Assembly (NCBI GenBank): GCA_946479335.1
Contig: CAMLFP010000062.1
Location: 1-19,848 of the forward strand
DNA: 19,848 nt
DNA from: an uncultured Archangium sp.
GTDB lineage: Bacteria; Myxococcota; Myxococcia; Myxococcales; Myxococcaceae
Direction: 5' to 3'
The notes under the pieces were generated by a model that saw nothing but the letters and a program-made list of their open reading frames with translations, made no database searches and had not been told where the DNA came from. Every line of letters begins with the position of its first letter. The stretch's first letter is position 1. Made by a program: the position numbers and the translations under genes. Below are positions 2,386-10,994 of the stretch, piece after piece.

Positions 2386-2940
2386 TCAAATTTTCTCGAA
2401 GAGATACGAGCGAAACTGGAGCCCCACCATCACCTCGCCGGAGAAGCGCAGGTGCAGCAGGCCGCCGATCTGCGCGCCCGCGCTCGCGTACACGCCGGCG
2501 ATGTCGGCGAAGTCGTATTGCACGCCGATCGCGAAGCGCACGCCGAGCGTCACCGCCGGCAGCGCGTGCACCGCCGCGTCGAGATCGAAGAAAGTCTTCC
2601 ACTTCTCGCGGCCGAAGCTCTGGCGCAGGCCCGCGTAGAACGAGAGGCCCACCAGCGCGACCTTGTAGACCCCGGGCTCGAAGCGGCCGCTCACGCGCAG
2701 CTCGCTCTTGTCGGTGATGCCCAGCGACCCGCCCAGCTCCAGCGGCACCCGGAGGCCCGTCTCGCTGCGCTGCTTCGAGGTGGCGCCGATCAGCGTGCTG
2801 TATTCACCGCCGGCCGCCACCGTCAGCCCGAGCGAGCCCCGGTGCGACTGCGCCCAGCCGACGCTCGAGAGCAATACGGCGAAGCACACCAGGGCCCTCC
2901 CCCGCGCCACGCGCGGAGGAGGCGTGCGCGAGCAGGTCAC
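2386..2940 (-). CDS. Small exported protein, probable outer-membrane beta-barrel
   Basis: Unknown protein with a signal peptide (ARGRALVCFAVLLSSVGWAQ) followed by about 155 residues of alternating polar and hydrophobic residues typical of beta-barrel strands, such as GSLGLTVAAGGEYS, LRVPLELGGSLGI and VALVGLSFYAGLR. The last strand ends in aromatic-rich MVGLQFRSYLFEKI. The size suits a small barrel of about eight strands. The GTG at 2940 overlaps the upstream stop by four bases (GTGA), suggesting translational coupling. A GTG at 2910 would give a more ordinary signal peptide and is an alternative start. Coupling to the large surface lipoprotein upstream suggests a shared role at the outer membrane. 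No named family is recognised. Confidence 0.72.
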   Translation of the reverse strand: MTCSRTPPPRVARGRALVCFAVLLSSVGWAQSHRGSLGLTVAAGGEYSTLIGATSKQRSETGLRVPLELGGSLGITDKSELRVSGRFEPGVYKVALVGLSFYAGLRQSFGREKWKTFFDLDAAVHALPAVTLGVRFAIGVQYDFADIAGVYASAGAQIGGLLHLRFSGEVMVGLQFRSYLFEKI

Positions 2941-5567
2941 TTCGCGCGACGGCGCAGCAGCGCGGCGAGCGCCAACGCCACGGCGCTCCACGCACCGCCG
3001 GTCGAACAGCCGCCGCCGCGGAGCGCGCCCTCCGACGTCGCGGTGCCATCGTTCAAGCTGGGCCGCGTGGCGACGACCGGGGCGGTCCACGTGGCCTGCC
3101 CGACGTTGCCGAGCGCGTCGCGCGCGAACACCGTCACGCCGCCGAGCTGCTCGACGGCCGAGAGCGAGATCTCCTGCGCAGGGCCAAACTCCGAGCGCTG
3201 CCCCGTGCCCAGCTGGTACGCGTACTCGAGCTGCTTCGAGACGACGTCACGCGCGCTGACGACGACGCGGTCGGCTGCCTCGTCGGCACTCAACGTCACC
3301 TCCGGCGGCGCGTAGTCGACCACGAACGACACCGTCTCCGGCGCCGAGACGCCGTGCGGGTCTTCAGCCACGCGGCTGCGCACCGAGATGGTGTGCGTGC
3401 CCTGGAGCGCCAGCACCGGGTGCGTCACCGTCAGCTCACCGCCGCTGGCCGCGACGAAGTCGGTCCACATGCCGTGGTCGACCTTCCACGAGAACTGGGC
3501 GCTGCCGGGCTTGCCGGTCGCGCTCACGTCGAGGATCGCCTTGGGCCAGGGCAGCGCGCGACGCCCGGTCGCGACCATCTCGCTGGCCTGCGGCATCACC
3601 GAGCGCTTCAGCGACGCCTTCATCTTCGGGGCGCTGACCGCGCAGGCGGCATTGATGTCCATCAGGTCGGCGTAGAGCGCGAGGTGGTTGAAGTCGTCGC
3701 TGCCGGGCGCGACCCGCCCGATGCCCTTCGCCTCACGCACGCGCAGCTTGAAGGTGCCCAGGCTCGGGAGCGCGATGGCGCCCAGGGCGCTGCCCAGCGC
3801 GGGCTCCGCGACGCCGATCAACGTCGGCACGAGGTCTGCCAGCACCTGCGGGTCTTCAGCGAGGATCTCGCTGTTCGACGTGCGGATGTTGGTGATGAGC
3901 GAGTTGAGATCACCCAGCGCCGGGGTCACCGAGTCACACCCCTCGAAGATGAGCGAGAGGGGAATGGAGACGTCGGCGGTCAGCGTGAAGAGGCGGACGT
4001 TGCGGTCATCGACCATCGCGTAGAAGTCGATGCTCAGGTCTTTCATCACCAGCGTCATCAGCGGCTTGATCGGCCGGTGCGTCGCGGGGTCGTAGGTGCC
4101 TTCACCCACGTGCACCTCGGGCGGCGTCGCGGGGCGGAGCACCATCACCATCGGCGCGCCCTTGCCGTCGCGCGTGGCGACCTTCCCGAGCGACGGCAGG
4201 AAGGTGGAGAAGAGATCCGTCGAGATGAGGTCGACCGTCTCGGTGCCGATCGCGAGGCAGAGGGCGCCCGACTGGTGCACACCCCACATCGCCTCGTTGA
4301 TGAAGCTCGACGAGATGCCGAGCGCGAACTGGTAGCCGGGATCGCCCGCGTCGAGCGGCGAGGCCTCACCGTCGAAGTCGGGGAACGGCACCATCGCCGC
4401 GACGGGCTCCGCCACGATGGGCACGCAGCCCGAGACGACCGACGGCTTCACGCCGACGCGGGTGCCGATGCTGATGCCGCCGTCGGTCTGCGTCTCCGCC
4501 GTGGCGCCCGCCGCCGCGAAGAGCTCGATGGCCGCGGTGGGCGGCGCGCCGAAGCTGCCGAGCACGCTGTAGAGGTTCATGGTGCCCTCGGTGCCAAGCA
4601 TCATCGGAGCGCAGGCGCCATTGAGAGAGCAGATCTTCCCGCTCCCGCCCAGCCCGCCGGAGCCGCCGCTGATGCAGCTCGCCTGCTGATTGGTGCCGTC
4701 GGTGGTCATCGGGCAGTCGGCGTCGGTGTCGCAGCTCTGGCAGTCGATGTTGGTCAGCATGTTGCCGATGATGTTCTGCAGCGGAGTCGACAACTGCTGG
4801 AGGATGAACTGCTTGATGGAGTTGTTCCCCAGGATGCTGCAGCCGAAGTCGCACGCGCCGCTGACGGTGCTGATGGCGAGGCTGTTCGGATCGAGGCAAT
4901 TGGGCGACGGCGGCGCACCGCTCGCGCCACACACCTGCGTGCCGCTGATGGAGTTCAGCTGGAACGCCAGCAGCTTGTCGAAGCGGGTGTCGATGCTGAA
5001 GTCCATCTGCACGCCGATGGTGTTGCCCGCCGGCGCGTTGTTGAACCGCGCGCCGCACGTGAGGCTGCACGAGAAGATGCCACACGCGGCCTTGGCGCTG
5101 AGGTTGATGACCCCGGTGTCAATCTGCAGCGAGACCGAGACCTTGAGGGTGTCTGGACCGATCGGCACCAGTTGAAGCCCCGTGATCTGGATGTTCACCA
5201 GCGACTGCTCGCCCGCCTCGCAGTTGCGATTGGCGTTCTGGTCGGCGAGCCACGCATCGACCGTCGCGGTGCACACCCAGACGTCGGTGCTCACCACGTC
5301 GTTCATGAACGTGCAGCCGATCGGCACCTGGATCTGGCCGCCCGGTGCGAACGCGCCGATGAGCGTCTGCCACTGCGTGTTGATGTAGTTCACGCCGGCC
5401 TGCGACAAGCGGATGTTGATCGCGTTGTCGGTCTTCGGCCCCATGTAGTGCGTGCCCGCGGGGTATGGCTCGAGACAGCTCAAGCCAACGCCTCCACTAC
5501 AACTGACAGCGAGCGCGGCAACGAACGGCAGCGAGAAGAGTCGCGCGTAGGTGCGTGATGAATGCAT
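2937..5567 (-). CDS. Large surface lipoprotein with MYXO-CTERM-like tail
   Basis: An 876-residue exported protein. The ATG at 5567 was chosen over an in-frame ATG at 5624 because it places a lipoprotein signal at the very start: positively charged n-region, hydrophobic core, and lipobox LAVSC with lipidated C23 and Ser at +2, which suits outer-membrane sorting. Residues about 45-560 hold two long regions of alternating amphipathic strands, separated by a Cys/Gly-rich linker around 275-320. The second contains a DLSIDFYAMVDDRNVRLFTL stretch near 510-529. This layout vaguely recalls two-lobed lipid-binding (BPI/TULIP-like) proteins, as inference only. About 690-830 looks like Ig-type domains. 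The C-terminus has GGGCSTGG, a hydrophobic stretch and LLRRRAK, which matches the MYXO-CTERM sorting tail. Function unknown. Confidence 0.82.
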   Translation of the reverse strand: MHSSRTYARLFSLPFVAALAVSCSGGVGLSCLEPYPAGTHYMGPKTDNAINIRLSQAGVNYINTQWQTLIGAFAPGGQIQVPIGCTFMNDVVSTDVWVCTATVDAWLADQNANRNCEAGEQSLVNIQITGLQLVPIGPDTLKVSVSLQIDTGVINLSAKAACGIFSCSLTCGARFNNAPAGNTIGVQMDFSIDTRFDKLLAFQLNSISGTQVCGASGAPPSPNCLDPNSLAISTVSGACDFGCSILGNNSIKQFILQQLSTPLQNIIGNMLTNIDCQSCDTDADCPMTTDGTNQQASCISGGSGGLGGSGKICSLNGACAPMMLGTEGTMNLYSVLGSFGAPPTAAIELFAAAGATAETQTDGGISIGTRVGVKPSVVSGCVPIVAEPVAAMVPFPDFDGEASPLDAGDPGYQFALGISSSFINEAMWGVHQSGALCLAIGTETVDLISTDLFSTFLPSLGKVATRDGKGAPMVMVLRPATPPEVHVGEGTYDPATHRPIKPLMTLVMKDLSIDFYAMVDDRNVRLFTLTADVSIPLSLIFEGCDSVTPALGDLNSLITNIRTSNSEILAEDPQVLADLVPTLIGVAEPALGSALGAIALPSLGTFKLRVREAKGIGRVAPGSDDFNHLALYADLMDINAACAVSAPKMKASLKRSVMPQASEMVATGRRALPWPKAILDVSATGKPGSAQFSWKVDHGMWTDFVAASGGELTVTHPVLALQGTHTISVRSRVAEDPHGVSAPETVSFVVDYAPPEVTLSADEAADRVVVSARDVVSKQLEYAYQLGTGQRSEFGPAQEISLSAVEQLGGVTVFARDALGNVGQATWTAPVVATRPSLNDGTATSEGALRGGGCSTGGAWSAVALALAALLRRRAK

Positions 5568-5647
5568 GAGGGGTTTGGGCTCCGGGGAAATCGGCCTGCT
5601 GCAACGGTGCTGAAAACTCGGCAAACCCTAGCAGTGTTCGAGCGTTT

Positions 5648-5679
5648 CTGACGCGTGACTGACCGGCGCAGCGCGTCAG
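5648..5679 (-). terminator. Inverted repeat at the end of larE, possible terminator
   Basis: CTGACGCG (5648-5655) is repeated in inverted form as CGCGTCAG (5672-5679), giving an 8 bp perfect stem with a 16-base loop. It overlaps the larE stop codon and lies upstream of the large lipoprotein gene. No run of T follows on the minus strand, so it is an imperfect intrinsic terminator, or an RNA-stabilising hairpin. Confidence 0.35.
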
Positions 5680-6542
5680 ATGACGGGCAGCGACACGTTG
5701 CGGCCACGCAGCGCGTCATTGAGGCGCCCGGAACGGAACGGCTCGAGGTCGATCGACACGTAGGTGAAGCCCGCGGCCTTCACCGCCGCGTTCACCTGCG
5801 CGCGCACCGTGGCGTCCATCATGCGCGGCAGCTCGTCGGCGCCCACCTCGAGGCGCGCGAGGTCGCCGTGGTACCGCACGCGGAAGATCACGAAGCCGAG
5901 CGCGCGGACGGCCTTCTCGGCGGCGCCCACCTGCTGGAGACGCTGCACGGTGACCTGCGTGCCGTACGGCAGGCGCGAGGCGAGGCACGCGAGCTGCGGC
6001 TTGTCCCACGTCGGGAGCCCGAGCCGGTGACTCCACGCACGGATCTCGTTCTTGGTGAGCCCGGCCTCGGCGAGCGGGGAGCGCACGGCGTGCTCGCGCG
6101 CGGCCTGGTGCCCGGGCCGGTGATCTTTCTTGTCGTCGGCGTTGAAGCCGTCGAGCACCACGGCGAGGTCCTGCTCCGCGCGCACCTTCTCGGAGATGGT
6201 GTACAGCTCCGTCTTGCAGAAGTAGCAGCGGTTCGCGGGGTTCGCGGCGTAGCGCGGGTCAGCGAGTTCGTTGGACGCGACCACCACGTGCCGCGCGCCC
6301 AACTGCGCGGCGAGCGCCTTGGCCTCCTCGGCCTCATCGGGCGCGACCGACGCCGACAACGCGGTCAAGGCGACGGCGCGCTCGCCCAGCTCGTCGAGCG
6401 CGATCTTCAGCACGAAGGCGGAGTCGACGCCGCCGGAGAAGGCGACCAGCGCCGAGCCGCAGGCGCGCAGGGAGTCACGCAGCTGCTGCACGCGCGACGC
6501 GGAGCCGGCGCACAACGAATCGATCTGTTCAGGCGACAACAT
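5676..6542 (-). CDS. larE: LarE-type ATP-dependent sulfur transferase (PP-loop family)
   Basis: A 288-residue cytoplasmic enzyme. LarE activates a substrate carboxylate with ATP and installs sulfur; in lactate racemase maturation it converts the pyridinium dicarboxylate intermediate into the thiocarboxylate form of the nickel-pincer cofactor. Seen here are the PP-loop SGGVDS at 36-41, NRCYFCK with C106 and C109, and KPQLACLASRLPYG with C186 in the position of the sacrificial or cluster cysteine. Single-Cys LarE proteins give up that cysteine's sulfur. Members with three cysteines bind a 4Fe-4S cluster that can carry extra sulfide, and this protein fits the three-Cys class. No larA, larB or larC is present in the window. 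It starts 37 bases after the APS-kinase-like gene and is probably co-transcribed with it. A different thiolation target is possible. Confidence 0.9.
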   Translation of the reverse strand: MLSPEQIDSLCAGSASRVQQLRDSLRACGSALVAFSGGVDSAFVLKIALDELGERAVALTALSASVAPDEAEEAKALAAQLGARHVVVASNELADPRYAANPANRCYFCKTELYTISEKVRAEQDLAVVLDGFNADDKKDHRPGHQAAREHAVRSPLAEAGLTKNEIRAWSHRLGLPTWDKPQLACLASRLPYGTQVTVQRLQQVGAAEKAVRALGFVIFRVRYHGDLARLEVGADELPRMMDATVRAQVNAAVKAAGFTYVSIDLEPFRSGRLNDALRGRNVSLPVI

Positions 6543-6579: not shown

Positions 6580-7257
6580 CTACTTCTTGCCCTTCTTCTT
6601 GGCGGGCTTCGAAGCCTTCGGCGCCTTCCCGGCCTTGGCGGGCTTCGCCGGCTTGCCGGGCTTGCCCTTCTTCACGGGCTGCGCCTTCCACTTCGTGCCC
6701 GTGATGACCTTGAGCTCCTCAGGCGACACGTACGAGAGATCGAGGAGCGACTGGAAGATGCGGTTGCCGCCTTCTTCGATCGACTCGGTGTTGGTGTGCA
6801 CCGTCACCTCGGGCGACCCGGGCGGCTGGTACGGCTCCGTGATGCCCACGAAGTTGGGGATCTCGCCGGCCAGCGCCTTCTTGTACTTGCCCGTCGTGTC
6901 ACGCTTGATGAGCTCGTCGGTGGGGCAGTCGACGTACACCTCGATGTACCGCTGAATGCGCCGGCGGTTCTCGTCGCGGCCGGCCTTGTCGGGGCTGGCG
7001 CACGCCACCAGCGTCGCGACGCCGTTGCGGGTCAGCACATCGGCCACGAAGCCGAGGCGCCGCGCGATCGCCACGCGCTCCTCTTTGGTGGCGCCTTCGA
7101 TTTCCTTCCACAGCTCGTCCTGCAGGTCGTCTTCGTCGAGAATCTCGACCTTGCGGCCAACCTGGCGGAGCCGCGCTTCGATGTAGCCCGCCAGCGTGGT
7201 TTTCCCTGCGCCGAGCATGCCCGTCAGCCACACCGTAAAGCCCGTTTCTTGCGCCAT
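6580..7257 (-). CDS. cysC: Adenylyl-sulfate (APS) kinase-like protein with Lys/Pro/Ala tail
   Basis: A 225-residue CysC-family P-loop kinase; the family phosphorylates adenosine 5'-phosphosulfate to PAPS. Seen are Walker A GMLGAGKT at 13-20, an RRxGxVA segment near 67-73, ASPDKAGR at 87-94, and GKYKKALAGEIPNFVGI, the conserved lid, at 123-139, followed by the family's EPYQPPxxPE. Odd points: the usual LDGDxxR motif reads LDEDDLQ at 40-46, so the substrate-contacting arginine is Gln46. Also, residues about 195-225 form a basic Lys/Pro/Ala/Gly tail like histone H1 tails. The ATG at 7257 has GGAGGGAG six bases upstream (7271-7264) and a promoter behind it. No ATP sulfurylase gene is adjacent. 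Family membership is firm; the exact substrate is less so. Confidence 0.86.
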   Translation of the reverse strand: MAQETGFTVWLTGMLGAGKTTLAGYIEARLRQVGRKVEILDEDDLQDELWKEIEGATKEERVAIARRLGFVADVLTRNGVATLVACASPDKAGRDENRRRIQRYIEVYVDCPTDELIKRDTTGKYKKALAGEIPNFVGITEPYQPPGSPEVTVHTNTESIEEGGNRIFQSLLDLSYVSPEELKVITGTKWKAQPVKKGKPGKPAKPAKAGKAPKASKPAKKKGKK

Positions 7258-7330: not shown

Positions 7331-7789
7331 TCAGGTCGAAGAATGTACGGCGCACCGCTCCGCTGGCCGCGAAACGAGGCGTTCACCGTCCCACTCCAGG
7401 AGCCCCAACGGCTCGGCCCACCCGAGGATCAGGCGCTGCACGGCGAGCGCGGCGAGCGAGCCAACCAGCACCGAAGGGCCCGCGCTGGAGGGCAGCGCGG
7501 CAAGCAGCTTCTCCCAGCACGCGGTGCAGCCGGCGGCGCTCTTCCAGGCGACGCCTCCACTGACCACCACCACCGCGCCCAGCGCCGAGCTCGGCTGGGT
7601 CGTCAGCAGCACGGAGCCGCCCTCGCCCACCTGGGTCCCACCGGCGCGGAGGTACGTCACCGCGCTCTCCATCGCCGGGCTGTCACCGCGGGCCTCGACC
7701 CTCGCCTCCATCAACCTGCGTTGCCCCCGCCCGCCCAGCTCGCGGAGGAGGATCTGCCGGCCATAGCGCTGGAGCTCTTCTTCGCGCAC
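7331..7789 (-). CDS. Truncated MoeB/ThiF-like protein: N-terminal arginine-finger segment and C-terminal part without the ATP-binding core
   Basis: A 152-residue protein. Residues 1-31 match the N-terminus of MoeB/ThiF proteins, with RYGRQILL at 8-15 and GRGQRRL at 20-26. R11 aligns with E. coli MoeB Arg14, which reaches across the dimer to the ATP of the other subunit. Residues about 70-95 resemble the strand and first zinc CxxC (C88, C91), and GPSVLVGSLAALAVQRLILG at 104-123 followed by a short LLEWDG strand match the C-terminal helices of MoeB. The Rossmann core with GxGGxG, the RQ loop and the catalytic Asp is absent. Its GTG start lies one base after the carrier gene stop, in a fully intact frame. 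I infer an inactive partner of the neighbouring ThiF protein. A decaying relic is the alternative. Confidence 0.78.
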   Translation of the reverse strand: MREEELQRYGRQILLRELGGRGQRRLMEARVEARGDSPAMESAVTYLRAGGTQVGEGGSVLLTTQPSSALGAVVVVSGGVAWKSAAGCTACWEKLLAALPSSAGPSVLVGSLAALAVQRLILGWAEPLGLLEWDGERLVSRPAERCAVHSST

Positions 7790-7790
7790 G

Positions 7791-8057
7791 TCAGCCCCCG
7801 GCCATCGCGGCGACCAGCACCACGGTGTCGCTCGCGCTCAACGCACGCCGCGGCTCGTCGCGCACGTCTTCGTCGCCGACGAACACCCCGACGGTGCGCT
7901 TGAGGGCGCCACCGTCGAGGAACAGCTTCTCGCGCAGCGCCGGGTGGGCGACGCACAACGCCTGCAGCGCGGCATCCACCGACGCGGCCTCGACGCGCAC
8001 CTTCGCCTGTTGACCGGCCAGGGCCCGCAGCGCCGCCGGGAGTTCGATGGTCACCAT
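7791..8057 (-). CDS. MoaD/ThiS-like ubiquitin-fold sulfur carrier protein
   Basis: An 88-residue beta-grasp protein ending exactly in AMAGG, the free diglycine that is adenylated and then thiocarboxylated in sulfur carriers of the MoaD/ThiS/CysO type. Typical features are the MVTIELPAALRALAG first hairpin, the VDAALQALCVAHPALREKL helix, the VGVFVGDEDVRD segment and the DTVVLVAAMAGG last strand. Its ATG overlaps the end of the TusA-like gene by seven bases, and it is followed one base later by the E1-like partner gene. The acceptor of its sulfur is not shown by the sequence. Moco, thiamin and cysteine biosynthesis are possible by family, but no enzyme of those pathways lies beside it, so I give no gene symbol. 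Confidence 0.9.
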   Translation of the reverse strand: MVTIELPAALRALAGQQAKVRVEAASVDAALQALCVAHPALREKLFLDGGALKRTVGVFVGDEDVRDEPRRALSASDTVVLVAAMAGG

Positions 8058-8272
8058 CGCGCGCGGAGCCTCAGCTTCGAGGTGCCGTCACCCAACGCCG
8101 TCAGCTCGAGCACCTCGTGCCCTTCTTCTCGCGCGCTCCGCGGCACGTTGCGCAGCGGCTCTTCACCGCGCAGCAGCACCTCGAGCTCGCCACCGTCATC
8201 GAGCTGCTCGAGCGCGAGCTTCACCCGCACGTACGTCATCGGGCACACGTCTCGGGTGATGTCGAGGACCAT
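8051..8272 (-). CDS. TusA-family sulfur carrier/transferase-like protein
   Basis: A 73-residue protein of the TusA (SirA-like) fold. TusA proteins carry persulfide sulfur on the first cysteine of a CPxP motif. Here the motif is DVCPMTYVRVKLALE with the candidate cysteine at residue 10; the second Pro of CPxP is Thr, a variant I associate with TusA-like genes next to ThiF and MoaD genes. The later part (NVPRSAREEGHEVLEL) is typical. The ATG at 8272 has GGGAG just upstream and gives the family's normal N-terminus, although it lies 37 bases inside the ThiF gene. The gene then overlaps the carrier gene by seven bases. It could supply sulfur to the adenylated carrier, by analogy with persulfide donors in related relays. 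Confidence 0.88.
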   Translation of the reverse strand: MVLDITRDVCPMTYVRVKLALEQLDDGGELEVLLRGEEPLRNVPRSAREEGHEVLELTALGDGTSKLRLRARW

Positions 8273-8970
8273 GCGTCTCCCAATACCGGCTTCGCGCCGT
8301 GTCCGCACGCCGCGCAGTCGGCGCGCTTCTTCACCTTCACCGCGCGGAACGTGAACGCGTGCCCGTCGACCACCTGCAGCAGCGCGACGCCCGGGGTGAC
8401 ATTCACGGTGAGCGCGAGCTGCGCCTGCACCCCGCCCATCAGGCCCGCCATCGACCCCAGCACGCCCGCCTGCGCGCAGGTCGGCGCATCGTCGGGCGGC
8501 GTCTCGAACAGACATCGCAGGCAGGGCCCGTCGGGTTGGATGCGCATCGCGAGGCCCTCGAAGCGCAGCACGCCGGCGTAGATGAGCGGCGTCGCCGTCA
8601 GCACCGCCGCGTCTGACAGCAGGAACTTGGTGTGCACGCCGTCGGTGCAGTCGAGCACCACGTCGTGCGCAGAGAACAGCGCCTCGGCGTTGGTCGCGGT
8701 GACGCGCTCTTGCAGCGTCGTGAGCTCGAGCGACGGAAACTGCGCGCGCAACTTCGCCGCTGCCGAATCGACCTTGGGCCGCCCGAGATCGGCGTCGTGA
8801 TGCAGCGGCTGCCGGTGGAGGTTACTCAGCTCGACCGTGTCGGCGTCGATCAGCGTCATGCGCGTGACGCCTGCGCGCGCGAGCGCCAGCGCCGCGGGGC
8901 ACCCGAGGCCACCCACTCCGATGATCAACACGCGCGGCACCCGCCCCTCATACCCGGAAGTGGCGGCCAC
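8236..8970 (-). CDS. ThiF/MoeB-family adenylyltransferase (E1-like) lacking the N-terminal arginine-finger segment
   Basis: A 244-residue E1-like enzyme that should adenylate the C-terminal glycine of the neighbouring carrier. Seen are GVGGLG at 18-23, D42 and D44, SNLHRQ at 49-54, K66 in RPKV, and the catalytic DCTDG with D110. A zinc site has C150/C153 and C219/C222. C165 in PTCAQAGVLG is at the place of the reactive cysteine of MOCS3/Uba4. MoeB and ThiF normally have about 30 residues with RYxRQ before the first strand. Here the GTG start is only ten residues before it, and an in-frame TGA lies two codons upstream. Missing, therefore, is the segment found in the protein at 7331-7789. Start of a four-gene run with overlaps of 37 and 7 bases. 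Confidence 0.9.
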   Translation of the reverse strand: MAATSGYEGRVPRVLIIGVGGLGCPAALALARAGVTRMTLIDADTVELSNLHRQPLHHDADLGRPKVDSAAAKLRAQFPSLELTTLQERVTATNAEALFSAHDVVLDCTDGVHTKFLLSDAAVLTATPLIYAGVLRFEGLAMRIQPDGPCLRCLFETPPDDAPTCAQAGVLGSMAGLMGGVQAQLALTVNVTPGVALLQVVDGHAFTFRAVKVKKRADCAACGHGAKPVLGDAWSSTSPETCAR

Positions 8971-8999: not shown

Positions 9000-10292
9000 G
9001 TGAGGCCCGCTGTCGAGCGCCGCGGCTACACTTGGCGCATCTTGGAGCCCAACGATGATCGCCGGGCGCGTGTGCGCGCGGTGCTGGAACAGCGAGGCCT
9101 GACCCAGCAGGTCTCCCCCCAGGAGGCCTCCCAGTCGTGGACCTCGGAGCGCTTCCGCGCGCGCGCCAAAGGCCTCTTCTACGCGCGGCTGATGTTCTTG
9201 AGCCTCGGCCTGCTGGTGCTCGCGGTGCCGGTGTGGCGCGTGTACTTCGACTTCTCGACGCTGGCCTTCGGCGGCTACTTCTTCATGTTGATGTACAGCG
9301 TGGCGAACTACCTGGTGCTGCCCAACGAGCGCGCGGGGAAGATCGTCACCTACGTCACGCTCTGTCTCGACCTGCTGATGATGGTGGTGGTGGTGGCCAA
9401 GCCGCACGCCGCGGGTGGGTTGGCGAACCCGCTGCTCGCGACGCAGCTGCTGTTCACGATGCTCTTCGCGCTGCTCTTCCCGCGGCCGCTGGCGATCCTC
9501 CCGCCGTTGCTGGCGCTGCCGATCACCGCGCGGCTCGATCAGCTGCTCGACCGCAGCCCGACCGCCATCGAGGTGCTGACGCTGCTCTGGTACCTCGGCT
9601 TGAACTTCATCGTCATCTACGTGCTGGTGTACCTCAACGAGCGCGAGGTGACCTCGCACCGGGAGGTCGTCGAGCTGCAGGGAGATCTCAAGGAGCTCGC
9701 GGTGGTCGAGGAGCGCAACCGGCTGGCCCGCGAGATCCACGACGGGCTGGGCGCCACCCTCTCGTCGCTGATCATCCAGTCTGAATATGTGACGCAGCTG
9801 GCGAAGGACCCCGCGGTGAAGAACGAGGTGCTGGAGCTCAAGCAATCGGCCGAGGAGGCGATCGAGGAGCTCCGGCGCAGCCTGCAGATGATGCGGGAGG
9901 ACTTCGACCTCGCGCACGGCGTGGAGGACTACGTGAAGACCTTCGGCGACCGCACGCAGCTGCCGGTACAGTTCAGCAAGTCGGGCACGCTGCTGGGCCG
10001 CCTCCAACCCGAGACCGCGCTCGCGCTCTTCCGGGTGCTGCAGGAGCTGCTCTCCAATTCGGCGAAGCACGCGCAGCCGAAGCACATCGAGGTGAAGCTG
10101 CACTTCGGCGCGCACGCGGTGCACCTCGCCGTGAAGGACGACGGCAAGGGCTTCGACCCGGCGACGCCGCGCCCCGGGCACTACGGCCTCATCAACCTCC
10201 GCGAGCGCGCCATGAAGCTGGGCGGAGACGTCACCATCGACGCCCGCCCCGGCGAGGGCGCGCACATCACCTTCTCCGCCCCCGTGAATTGA
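9000..10292 (+). CDS. Membrane sensor histidine kinase, NarL/DesK type (HisKA_3)
   Basis: A 430-residue kinase. Residues about 60-212 hold five or six hydrophobic segments, so the sensor part lies in the membrane with no large outside domain. A short coiled coil (213-240) leads to the HisKA_3 box, REIHDGLGATLSSL, with phospho-acceptor H247. The ATPase domain has N353 in QELLSNSAKHA, DDGKGF at 380-385 and GHYGL at 393-397. Such kinases phosphorylate LuxR-type regulators, and one follows three bases downstream. The GTG at 9000 is the longest start. Codons at 9042 (TTG) or 9069 (GTG) would also fit, as none has a clear ribosome site. The start lies only 29 bases from that of the divergent ThiF gene. 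The signal is unknown. Confidence 0.9.
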   Translation: MRPAVERRGYTWRILEPNDDRRARVRAVLEQRGLTQQVSPQEASQSWTSERFRARAKGLFYARLMFLSLGLLVLAVPVWRVYFDFSTLAFGGYFFMLMYSVANYLVLPNERAGKIVTYVTLCLDLLMMVVVVAKPHAAGGLANPLLATQLLFTMLFALLFPRPLAILPPLLALPITARLDQLLDRSPTAIEVLTLLWYLGLNFIVIYVLVYLNEREVTSHREVVELQGDLKELAVVEERNRLAREIHDGLGATLSSLIIQSEYVTQLAKDPAVKNEVLELKQSAEEAIEELRRSLQMMREDFDLAHGVEDYVKTFGDRTQLPVQFSKSGTLLGRLQPETALALFRVLQELLSNSAKHAQPKHIEVKLHFGAHAVHLAVKDDGKGFDPATPRPGHYGLINLRERAMKLGGDVTIDARPGEGAHITFSAPVN

Positions 10293-10295
10293 CCC

Positions 10296-10994
10296 ATGAC
10301 CGATCCGACTCCGCAGCAGGCCGCAGCGCCCATCCGCGTCTTCGTCGTCGAAGACCAGACCAAGATCCTCAAGAACCAGCTCAAGCTGCTGGAGAGCAAC
10401 CCGGAGCTCGCCATCGTCGGCACCGCGCTCTCTGGCGAGACGGCCCTCGAGGAGGTGCGGCGGCTGAAGCCCGACGTGCTGCTCCTCGACCTCGGCCTGC
10501 CGCGCATGAGCGGCATCGACGTGACCCGCGCCGTGAAGGCCGAGCTCCCGGAGATCGAGATCCTCATCTTCACGATCTTCGACGAGGAGGACAAAGTGCT
10601 GGAGGCCGTGCAGGCGGGCGCGTCGGGCTACCTCCTCAAGGGCACCACCGCCGATAAGATGATCGAGGCGATCAAGGAGGTGAAGGCCGGCGGCACGGTG
10701 ATTCAGCCCAGCCTCGCGCGACGGCTGCTCAAGCACTTCCGCGTGGGAGAGACGACGACGCCCGGCGCCCCCGCGCTGACCGAAGAGCCGGAGGGCAAGA
10801 AGCTGTCGGCCCGCGAGACGGAGATCCTCCAGCTGATCGCCAAGGGCATCTCCAACAACGAGGCGGCGCAGCTGCTGAGCCTCTCGAAGGCCACCATCCG
10901 CACGCACCTCGAGCACATCTACCGCAAGCTCGAGGTCACCAACCGCGTGGAGGCCGTCACCGAGGGCCTCCGCAAGGGCCTGATCCAGGTCTGA
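10296..10994 (+). CDS. NarL/FixJ-family response regulator with LuxR-type DNA-binding domain
   Basis: A 232-residue cytoplasmic transcription regulator and the evident partner of the kinase just upstream (three-base gap). The receiver domain is at residues 12-130: acidic pair E19/D20, phosphorylation site D65 in LLLDLGLPRMSG, T93 and K115 in GYLLKG. After a linker, the LuxR helix-turn-helix is at about 168-228, with LSARETEILQLIAKGISNNE, the recognition segment LSLSKATIRTHLEHIYRKL and a NRVEAV ending. All key residues are present, so it should be phosphorylation-controlled. Targets cannot be read from the sequence. The nearest divergent candidate is the ThiF operon. Confidence 0.94.
   Translation: MTDPTPQQAAAPIRVFVVEDQTKILKNQLKLLESNPELAIVGTALSGETALEEVRRLKPDVLLLDLGLPRMSGIDVTRAVKAELPEIEILIFTIFDEEDKVLEAVQAGASGYLLKGTTADKMIEAIKEVKAGGTVIQPSLARRLLKHFRVGETTTPGAPALTEEPEGKKLSARETEILQLIAKGISNNEAAQLLSLSKATIRTHLEHIYRKLEVTNRVEAVTEGLRKGLIQV

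Follow-up and report, generated by a model that had tools for sequence, protein, structure and literature searches.

How could a ThiF-type adenylyltransferase that begins at its first Rossmann strand, without the N-terminal helix that bears the arginine finger of ThiF and MoeB, activate a sulfur carrier? The question is raised by a stretch of 19,848 nucleotides from an uncultured Archangium sp. (contig CAMLFP010000062.1; the whole stretch is hereafter the window), whose minus strand carries an operon of six genes in the same direction, in the order ThiF, TusA, carrier, partner, CysC and LarE. The initial annotation had read the ThiF protein and the 152-residue partner as the active and inactive members of a heterodimer, and genome comparison supports this reading, in which the assembly is predicted from sequence. 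We consider it likely that ThiF and the partner together make up one heterodimeric E1-like activating enzyme, each forming one half. The features on which the argument turns are the following, with conservation counted over the aligned loci of the survey described below.

8236..8970, minus strand: ThiF/MoeB-type adenylyltransferase, the proposed active half, beginning at the first Rossmann strand; alternative start at GTG 8940
8812..8814, minus strand: ThiF R53 in NLHRQ, taken as MoeB R73 from the MoeB alignment; Arg in 103 of 105 loci
8641..8643, minus strand: ThiF D110, taken as MoeB D130; Asp in 103 of 105 loci
8476..8478, minus strand: ThiF C165, aligned with the position of the thiol Cys, ThiF C184 or MoeB C187 (residue names from PMC13139853); Cys in 99 of 105 loci
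8051..8272, minus strand: TusA-like sulfurtransferase (CPMTYV); PF01206, 5.3e-17
7791..8057, minus strand: MoaD/ThiS/CysO-type carrier with C-terminal Gly-Gly; PF02597, 3.8e-7, and SAMP1 profile, 7.8e-11, under its cut-off
7331..7789, minus strand: the 152-residue partner, proposed inactive half, with N-terminal finger segment, a beta1/helix remnant, CxxC...CxxH and C-terminal helices, and without an ATP site
7754..7768, minus strand: RYGRQ segment of the partner; the codon of R11, the proposed arginine finger, is 7757-7759

A ThiF protein without the finger helix

The ThiF gene starts with GTG at 8970, and an in-frame TGA at 8976-8974, two codons upstream, closes off a longer form; the coordinates and frames of the initial annotation were correct. 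GTG 8940 is a possible alternative start: P0062, the closest relative in the database at 98% identity, has 234 residues against 244. Membership of the family is firm (PF00899, 5.6e-60, 202.9 bits against a cut-off of 28.1), and the protein carries GxGGLG, DxD, NLxRQ, K, DxxD, CxxC...CxxC and the thiol Cys. Among the residues for binding adenosine triphosphate (ATP) and activating the carrier, K66 is kept at 104 of the 105 loci, alongside R53 and D110 as listed. The PF00899 match begins at profile position 22 and covers residues 13-219, and the MoeB and ThiF structures in PDB align with the protein only from residues 30-32 onward, which bears out the earlier description of a complete catalytic core that begins at the first Rossmann strand. 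No catalytic-cysteine domain or ubiquitin-fold domain was found on the 244-residue chain, on which PF00899 is the only family above its cut-off.

An N-terminal finger helix (RYxRQ) was not recognised upstream of the ThiF chain at any of the 105 loci, so that the protein lacks an element of the self-sufficient MoeB/ThiF homodimer. Loose upstream patterns at five ThiFs (L041, L055, L076, L085 and L097) were judged by eye to be chance letters (HRRAL, HGRAL, HKRAL). We rejected the idea of a longer ThiF hidden by a frameshift or assembly error, since the segment went unrecognised at all of these loci. Some operon ThiFs, for example those of L054, L066 and L069, have a short His-rich N-terminus (MHG...HHPRIPxASRxERAR) in place of the finger helix, and at L076 (G046, 5473-6384) ThiF and carrier share a single open frame, an apparent E1-carrier fusion.

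A partner that carries the finger segment

The partner carries near its N-terminus the segment that the ThiF chain lacks, R8-Y9-G10-R11-Q12. Over its residues 2-51 it matches the first 50 residues of MoeB profiles (best 6.6e-6, far under the model cut-offs), a profile search gave no Pfam match, and its sequence has no GxGGLG, NLxRQ or DxxD, so that it does not qualify as a catalytic enzyme; the initial annotation had likewise described a protein with RYGRQ and no ATP site, separated from ThiF by a diglycine carrier and a TusA-like protein. The resemblance to the E1 N-terminus exceeds chance, judging by the invariance of R11 and Q12 and by the recurring gene order in relatives. A search of 5.8 billion proteins returned 59 matches, 54 of which were aligned with the window partner (55 rows) after leaving out three longer E1-like proteins (P0059-P0061) and two short ones (P0039, P0050). 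Twenty-two columns of this alignment are invariant, including R11, Q12, G19, G20, G22, Q23, C88, C91 and C146; in an alignment of 24 rows chosen for diversity among the relatives, with P0060 and P0061 included, only R11, Q23, Y46 and G51 are. The aligned matches are annotated without a Pfam domain, and those with a name are called "hypothetical protein", except for one molybdopterin-synthase adenylyltransferase.

The ratio of nonsynonymous to synonymous substitution rates (dN/dS) of the partner over 20 non-overlapping close pairs ranges from 0.03 to 0.45, with a median of 0.12, the highest value coming from L105/L100, whose partners reach contig ends; for ThiF the median over 20 close pairs is about 0.085 (range 0.03-0.18). 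By these values the partner evolves under purifying selection. The sequence data show strong selection on the finger Arg, but not its chemical role.

Structure models point to the same fold. The partner model has a mean predicted local distance difference test (pLDDT) score of 88.4, with residues 1-20 at 55-57, as would be expected for a helix that packs on another chain, other causes being possible. Its best Foldseek match is ThiF (2.6e-5), and by VIA-align it ties with ThiF (10.7), SAE1 (10.6), MoeB (10.5) and APPBP1 (10.4); the model is thus consistent with the E1 fold but does not single out inactive subunits. Homology of the partner to this fold is detectable along three lines: the MoeB-profile match, PF00899 matches in some family members, and the Foldseek match. 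The ThiF model (pLDDT 87.8) matches ThiF and MoeB at 28.2, UBA3 at 27.1 and a human SUMO E1 chain at 27.0, and several SUMO E1 chains align with it from residue 6.

The two genes are kept together

We searched the same 147 genomes of the class for the partner and for ThiF, and 195 genomes of the phylum for the partner, with follow-ups in 26 and 20 genomes; candidate loci were read with purpose-built profiles, and one locus per genome was counted. The two genes do stand side by side in other genomes: at 122 loci, the window included, one operon encodes a ThiF without the segment and, as a gene of its own, the partner. In 105 of them the two lie on the same strand within 950 bases. The other 17 were added in batches of 10 (among them G158, outside the class), one (G167, also outside the class, with the partner immediately after ThiF) and six. 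Seen from the enzyme, 81 genomes have a class-type ThiF (E <= 2.0e-75), and the partner is listed for 79 of these, partial in G080 and missed in G057, where the contig ends 94 bases past ThiF. The usual gene order is ThiF-TusA-carrier-partner-(CysM)-(JAB)-CysC-LarE, individual genes being undetected in many loci. Relatives that bear names are Archangium and Myxococcales metagenome assemblies. The pattern strongly suggests a pairing of putative active and helper halves in myxobacteria.

The 105 loci remain from 116 tabulated, 11 having been excluded. One gene of the pair is absent at L003, L017, L078, L083 and L142, where L003 and L017 are two contigs of G003, and L017, L078 and L083 lie at contig ends. 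E1 and finger segment share one frame at L106, L079, L143, L144 and L145. L139 has a ThiF-type gene with no partner nearby and no finger flagged by the pattern; in its genome, G035, a partner occurs on a different contig. Apart from L017, L007-L038 were passed over, being side loci or duplicates of genomes already represented. No partner locus was read for G013 or G048 (the second ThiF of G048 lies at a contig edge), and the partners found in G026 and G035 were not read as pairs. An early contig scan with the window partner as sole query gave no match; an alignment-based scan gave seven loci, of which L007, a full-length E1, was dropped. Judged by weak best matches, the pair is apparently absent from G052, G054, G055, G076, G077, G078, G081, G083 and G093, where a diverged partner is possible; the three of these that were read (G055, G077 and G093) have full-length E1s. 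The small carrier profile found no carrier at many loci (for example L040, L056, L085, L089 and L103), where it may have diverged or lie elsewhere; at L040, L042-L044, L046, L056, L058, L070, L071 and others it found none between TusA and the partner.

Finger and active site are lost together

The finger Arg is kept in 120 of the 122 partners and the NLxRQ Arg in 120 of the 122 ThiFs, with the same two exceptions. In the 105-locus table the window itself was scored as having no motif because the C-terminal half of its partner match scored better; its sequence has RYGRQ. Both arginines are present at all 17 added loci (17/17 each), where pattern matching alone left the DxxD Asp unmatched in four (L200, L208, L210 and L211).

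The two exceptions, L077 (G082) and L084 (G080), have a ThiF without Arg53 and Asp110 and a partner without the RYxRQ segment, the partner profile match beginning at position 30 in G082 and at position 105 in G080. At the loci examined, then, no partner was found broken beside an otherwise intact set of genes, the outcome that the initial annotation had named as telling against the heterodimer. Carrier, JAB, CysC and LarE remain at both loci. TusA was undetected there, an absence of little weight, as it was also undetected at intact pairs (for example L072, L076, L087, L088, L091, L093-L097 and L099). The two genomes resemble each other, their ThiFs being 80% identical, so the joint loss may be one event. 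The dN/dS of ThiF between them is 0.46, against 0.03-0.18 in the 20 close pairs elsewhere, and that of the 77 remaining shared partner codons is 0.17, a value that speaks for some role of the C-terminal part retained without the finger.

Proposed stages of the division

The loci can be set out by how much of the inactive half is left. At G147 a single full-length E1 with RHSRQ stands in a CysM-E1-TusA-carrier-CysM-JAB-CysC operon, with no separate partner in the locus read. The longest partners, of about 225-232 residues (L089, L090, L099, L103 and L104; those of L098 and L107 are similar but reach contig ends), have a Rossmann-like domain with, by reading, no GxGGLG or NLxRQ, and L089 and L103 still match PF00899. 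Intermediate partners measure 202-216 residues at L074 and L075 and roughly 150-215 at most loci. The shortest, of 111-125 codons (L091, L093-L095) and about 88 residues (L086), keep the finger segment.

In a 38-row tree the operon ThiFs cluster (support 79/62) and are joined by the E1 of G147 (96/80); eight further full-length E1s stand apart (97/97), and the nine long partners fall into a single group (93/96) with a long branch. With more full-length E1s in the tree the deep order does not resolve; one origin for all finger-less ThiFs is not rejected by the approximately unbiased test (p-AU 0.54), but is not established. The ancestral operon of this type probably encoded a single full-length E1, as does that of G147. 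L177 (G162, 1351-2400) has, flanked by a CysM-like gene and a carrier gene, an operon E1 without RYxRQ, and no partner was seen within 3.6 kb.

Pathway and neighbouring genes

Because the operons of relatives contain JAB (PF14464) and PALP/CysM-like (PF00291) genes, both present for example at L072, L076, L086 and L092, the job of the operon is probably the charging of a sulfur carrier. This gene content matches the CysO-CysM-Mec+ scheme (PMC3227635) and the class 4e operons of Iyer et al. 2006 (PMC1779556). In the window, a Gly-Gly carrier does lie alongside an E1 gene, and CysM-like and JAB (Mec+-like) genes were not found in the operon. The genes around the four already listed are:

6580..7257, minus strand: CysC, adenylylsulfate kinase; PF01583, 3.7e-39, and synteny; presumably in the same operon
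5676..6542, minus strand: LarE, ATP-dependent sacrificial sulfur transferase; TIGR00268, 3.1e-94, and synteny; presumably in the same operon
9000..10292, plus strand: histidine kinase, divergent from the operon, its real start perhaps near 9042; syntenic in many relatives
10296..10994, plus strand: response regulator directly after the kinase, from the profile search

The divergent histidine kinase and response regulator (9000-10994) may regulate the operon. Beyond LarE lies an 895-residue open frame (2937-5624), with a comparable long frame in the corresponding position of L001 and L002.

Discussion

Taken as the halves of one enzyme, the two proteins would divide the work as follows. ThiF, on the support of its motifs, would bind ATP and the Gly-Gly tail of the carrier and adenylate the carrier. 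The partner, a degenerate copy of the same fold (as homology within its family shows), would replace the second subunit of a MoeB-type dimer, providing a dimer surface from which its N-terminal helix would cross over, so that R11, by analogy with MoeB R14 and ThiF R11, would touch the ATP phosphates in the ThiF site. TusA of the same operon would deliver persulfide sulfur to give the carrier thiocarboxylate, and the charged carrier would probably supply cysteine synthesis or a related step of sulfur assimilation, to judge by the CysM-like synthase and JAB/Mec+-like peptidase of relatives. In evolutionary terms, two E1 copies would have diverged, the active half losing its finger helix and the inactive half losing its ATP site and shrinking.

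How much the finger itself contributes is disputed in the literature. The finger is Arg11 in ThiF and Arg14 in MoeB, and is stated to be non-essential in both (PMC13139853), whereas in Uba4 changing the corresponding residue of the second subunit (R18A) causes a strong drop in adenylation (PMC7527816); in UBA1, Arg57 lies together with Arg515 at the gamma-phosphate position (PMC12355090). To judge by the first two sources, the finger may help without being indispensable. The heterodimer could accordingly form with the finger adding little, the partner serving mainly as a scaffold, either to stabilise ThiF or to provide a docking site for the carrier, TusA or the JAB peptidase. This would agree with the non-essential finger of MoeB and ThiF, with yeast Tcd1, which is needed for the solubility of Tcd2 (PMC13139853), with the partners of L056 and L073, which continue in the same frame into a C-terminal JAB-type domain, and with the constraint on the finger-less remainder in G080 and G082. 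We nevertheless regard it as unlikely, as R11 is among only four invariant columns of the diverse alignment and is lost only where catalytic residues of ThiF are lost too, Uba4 R18A points the other way, and the short partners (L086, L091, L093-L095) have been reduced without losing the finger segment.

Less probable still, and in our view doubtful, is that ThiF acts alone as a fingerless homodimer while the partner does something else, for example regulation or the relay of sulfur through its CxxC...CxxH. TcdA is described as having no finger (PMC13139853), and a finger-less E1, as at G162, may work alone somewhere; but several partners (for example at L040, L042, L091 and L093) have the finger segment without the Cys/His set, and the presence of both genes, like the loss of their key residues, coincides. 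A housekeeping MoeB could also donate the missing finger to the operon ThiF, leaving the partner unneeded for that, and each of G001-G004 does encode a separate full-length MoeB; we think this very improbable, as it accounts neither for the presence of a finger-bearing partner in the operon at 122 loci nor for the constancy of its Arg. That the partner is a functionless, decaying relic of a duplicated E1 gene, as its missing ATP site and its variable length (about 88-232 residues) might suggest, deserves almost no credence because of its low dN/dS, recurring gene order and invariant residues.

The preferred reading, a heterodimer of an active ThiF and a finger-bearing partner, can be set beside several known systems. 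E. coli MoeB and ThiF, homodimeric sulfur-carrier adenylyltransferases of PF00899, have identical subunits, each with active site and finger, which here are split over two proteins. UBA3-APPBP1 (the NEDD8 E1) and SAE2-SAE1 (the SUMO E1) share the present layout of an active chain without the finger segment and an inactive chain with it. The echo of these enzymes proposed in the initial annotation holds to that extent, at the level of sequence, and fails for the catalytic-cysteine and ubiquitin-fold domains: the 244-residue active half has no catalytic-cysteine or E2-binding domain, and the inactive half is far smaller. Because the window ThiF is much closer in identity to ThiF (39%) and MoeB (36%) than to UBA3 (22-24%) or the SUMO E1 active chains (19-20%), the likeness is probably convergence, and a heterodimeric E1 that evolved in bacteria separately from UBA3-APPBP1 is our best reading of the sequences.

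The yeast ct6A tRNA dehydratase Tcd1-Tcd2 offers a parallel, its inactive ThiF-fold subunit Tcd1 being proposed to give the arginine finger, Arg59, to Tcd2; it differs in acting on tRNA instead of a carrier protein and in that Tcd1 retains a ThiF domain (PMC13139853). CysO-CysM-Mec+/MoeZ cysteine synthesis likewise combines a Gly-Gly carrier with an E1, and its CysM-like and JAB genes recur in the operons of relatives, but its MoeZR is a single E1 chain with a rhodanese domain where we find a divided E1 and TusA (PMC3227635). The class 4e sulfur-assimilation operons also bring together ThiS/MoaD-like, E1-like, SirA/TusA, JAB and adenylylsulfate kinase genes; the main text of that paper contains neither "Myxococc-" nor "heterodimer", and a divided E1 is unmentioned in the available passages (PMC1779556). 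No title found by our literature search, which misses most subscription literature, describes a divided bacterial E1, and a prior description is possible. Eukaryotes are known to have E1s that pair an active half with an inactive one; no title in that search pointed to a bacterial counterpart serving a sulfur carrier with a partner so reduced.

The shift of E1 enzymes from identical pairs to pairs of an active and an inactive subunit is usually argued from eukaryotic end products. On balance we favour the view that bacteria independently evolved an asymmetric E1 with one active site, resembling UBA3-APPBP1, for a sulfur carrier, and that in some lineages the inactive subunit shrank to roughly 90-125 residues, leaving an arginine-finger helix and a minimal dimer surface. 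If this is true, the undivided E1, the partner with a whole Rossmann domain, the shrunken partner and the jointly decayed pair would together allow the origin of a heterodimeric E1 to be followed stage by stage. The finding bears on the published disagreement over the need for the arginine finger and suggests a function for the partner family. A bacterial lineage seems to have made the same step alone, and its surviving stages would make each step accessible with small proteins.

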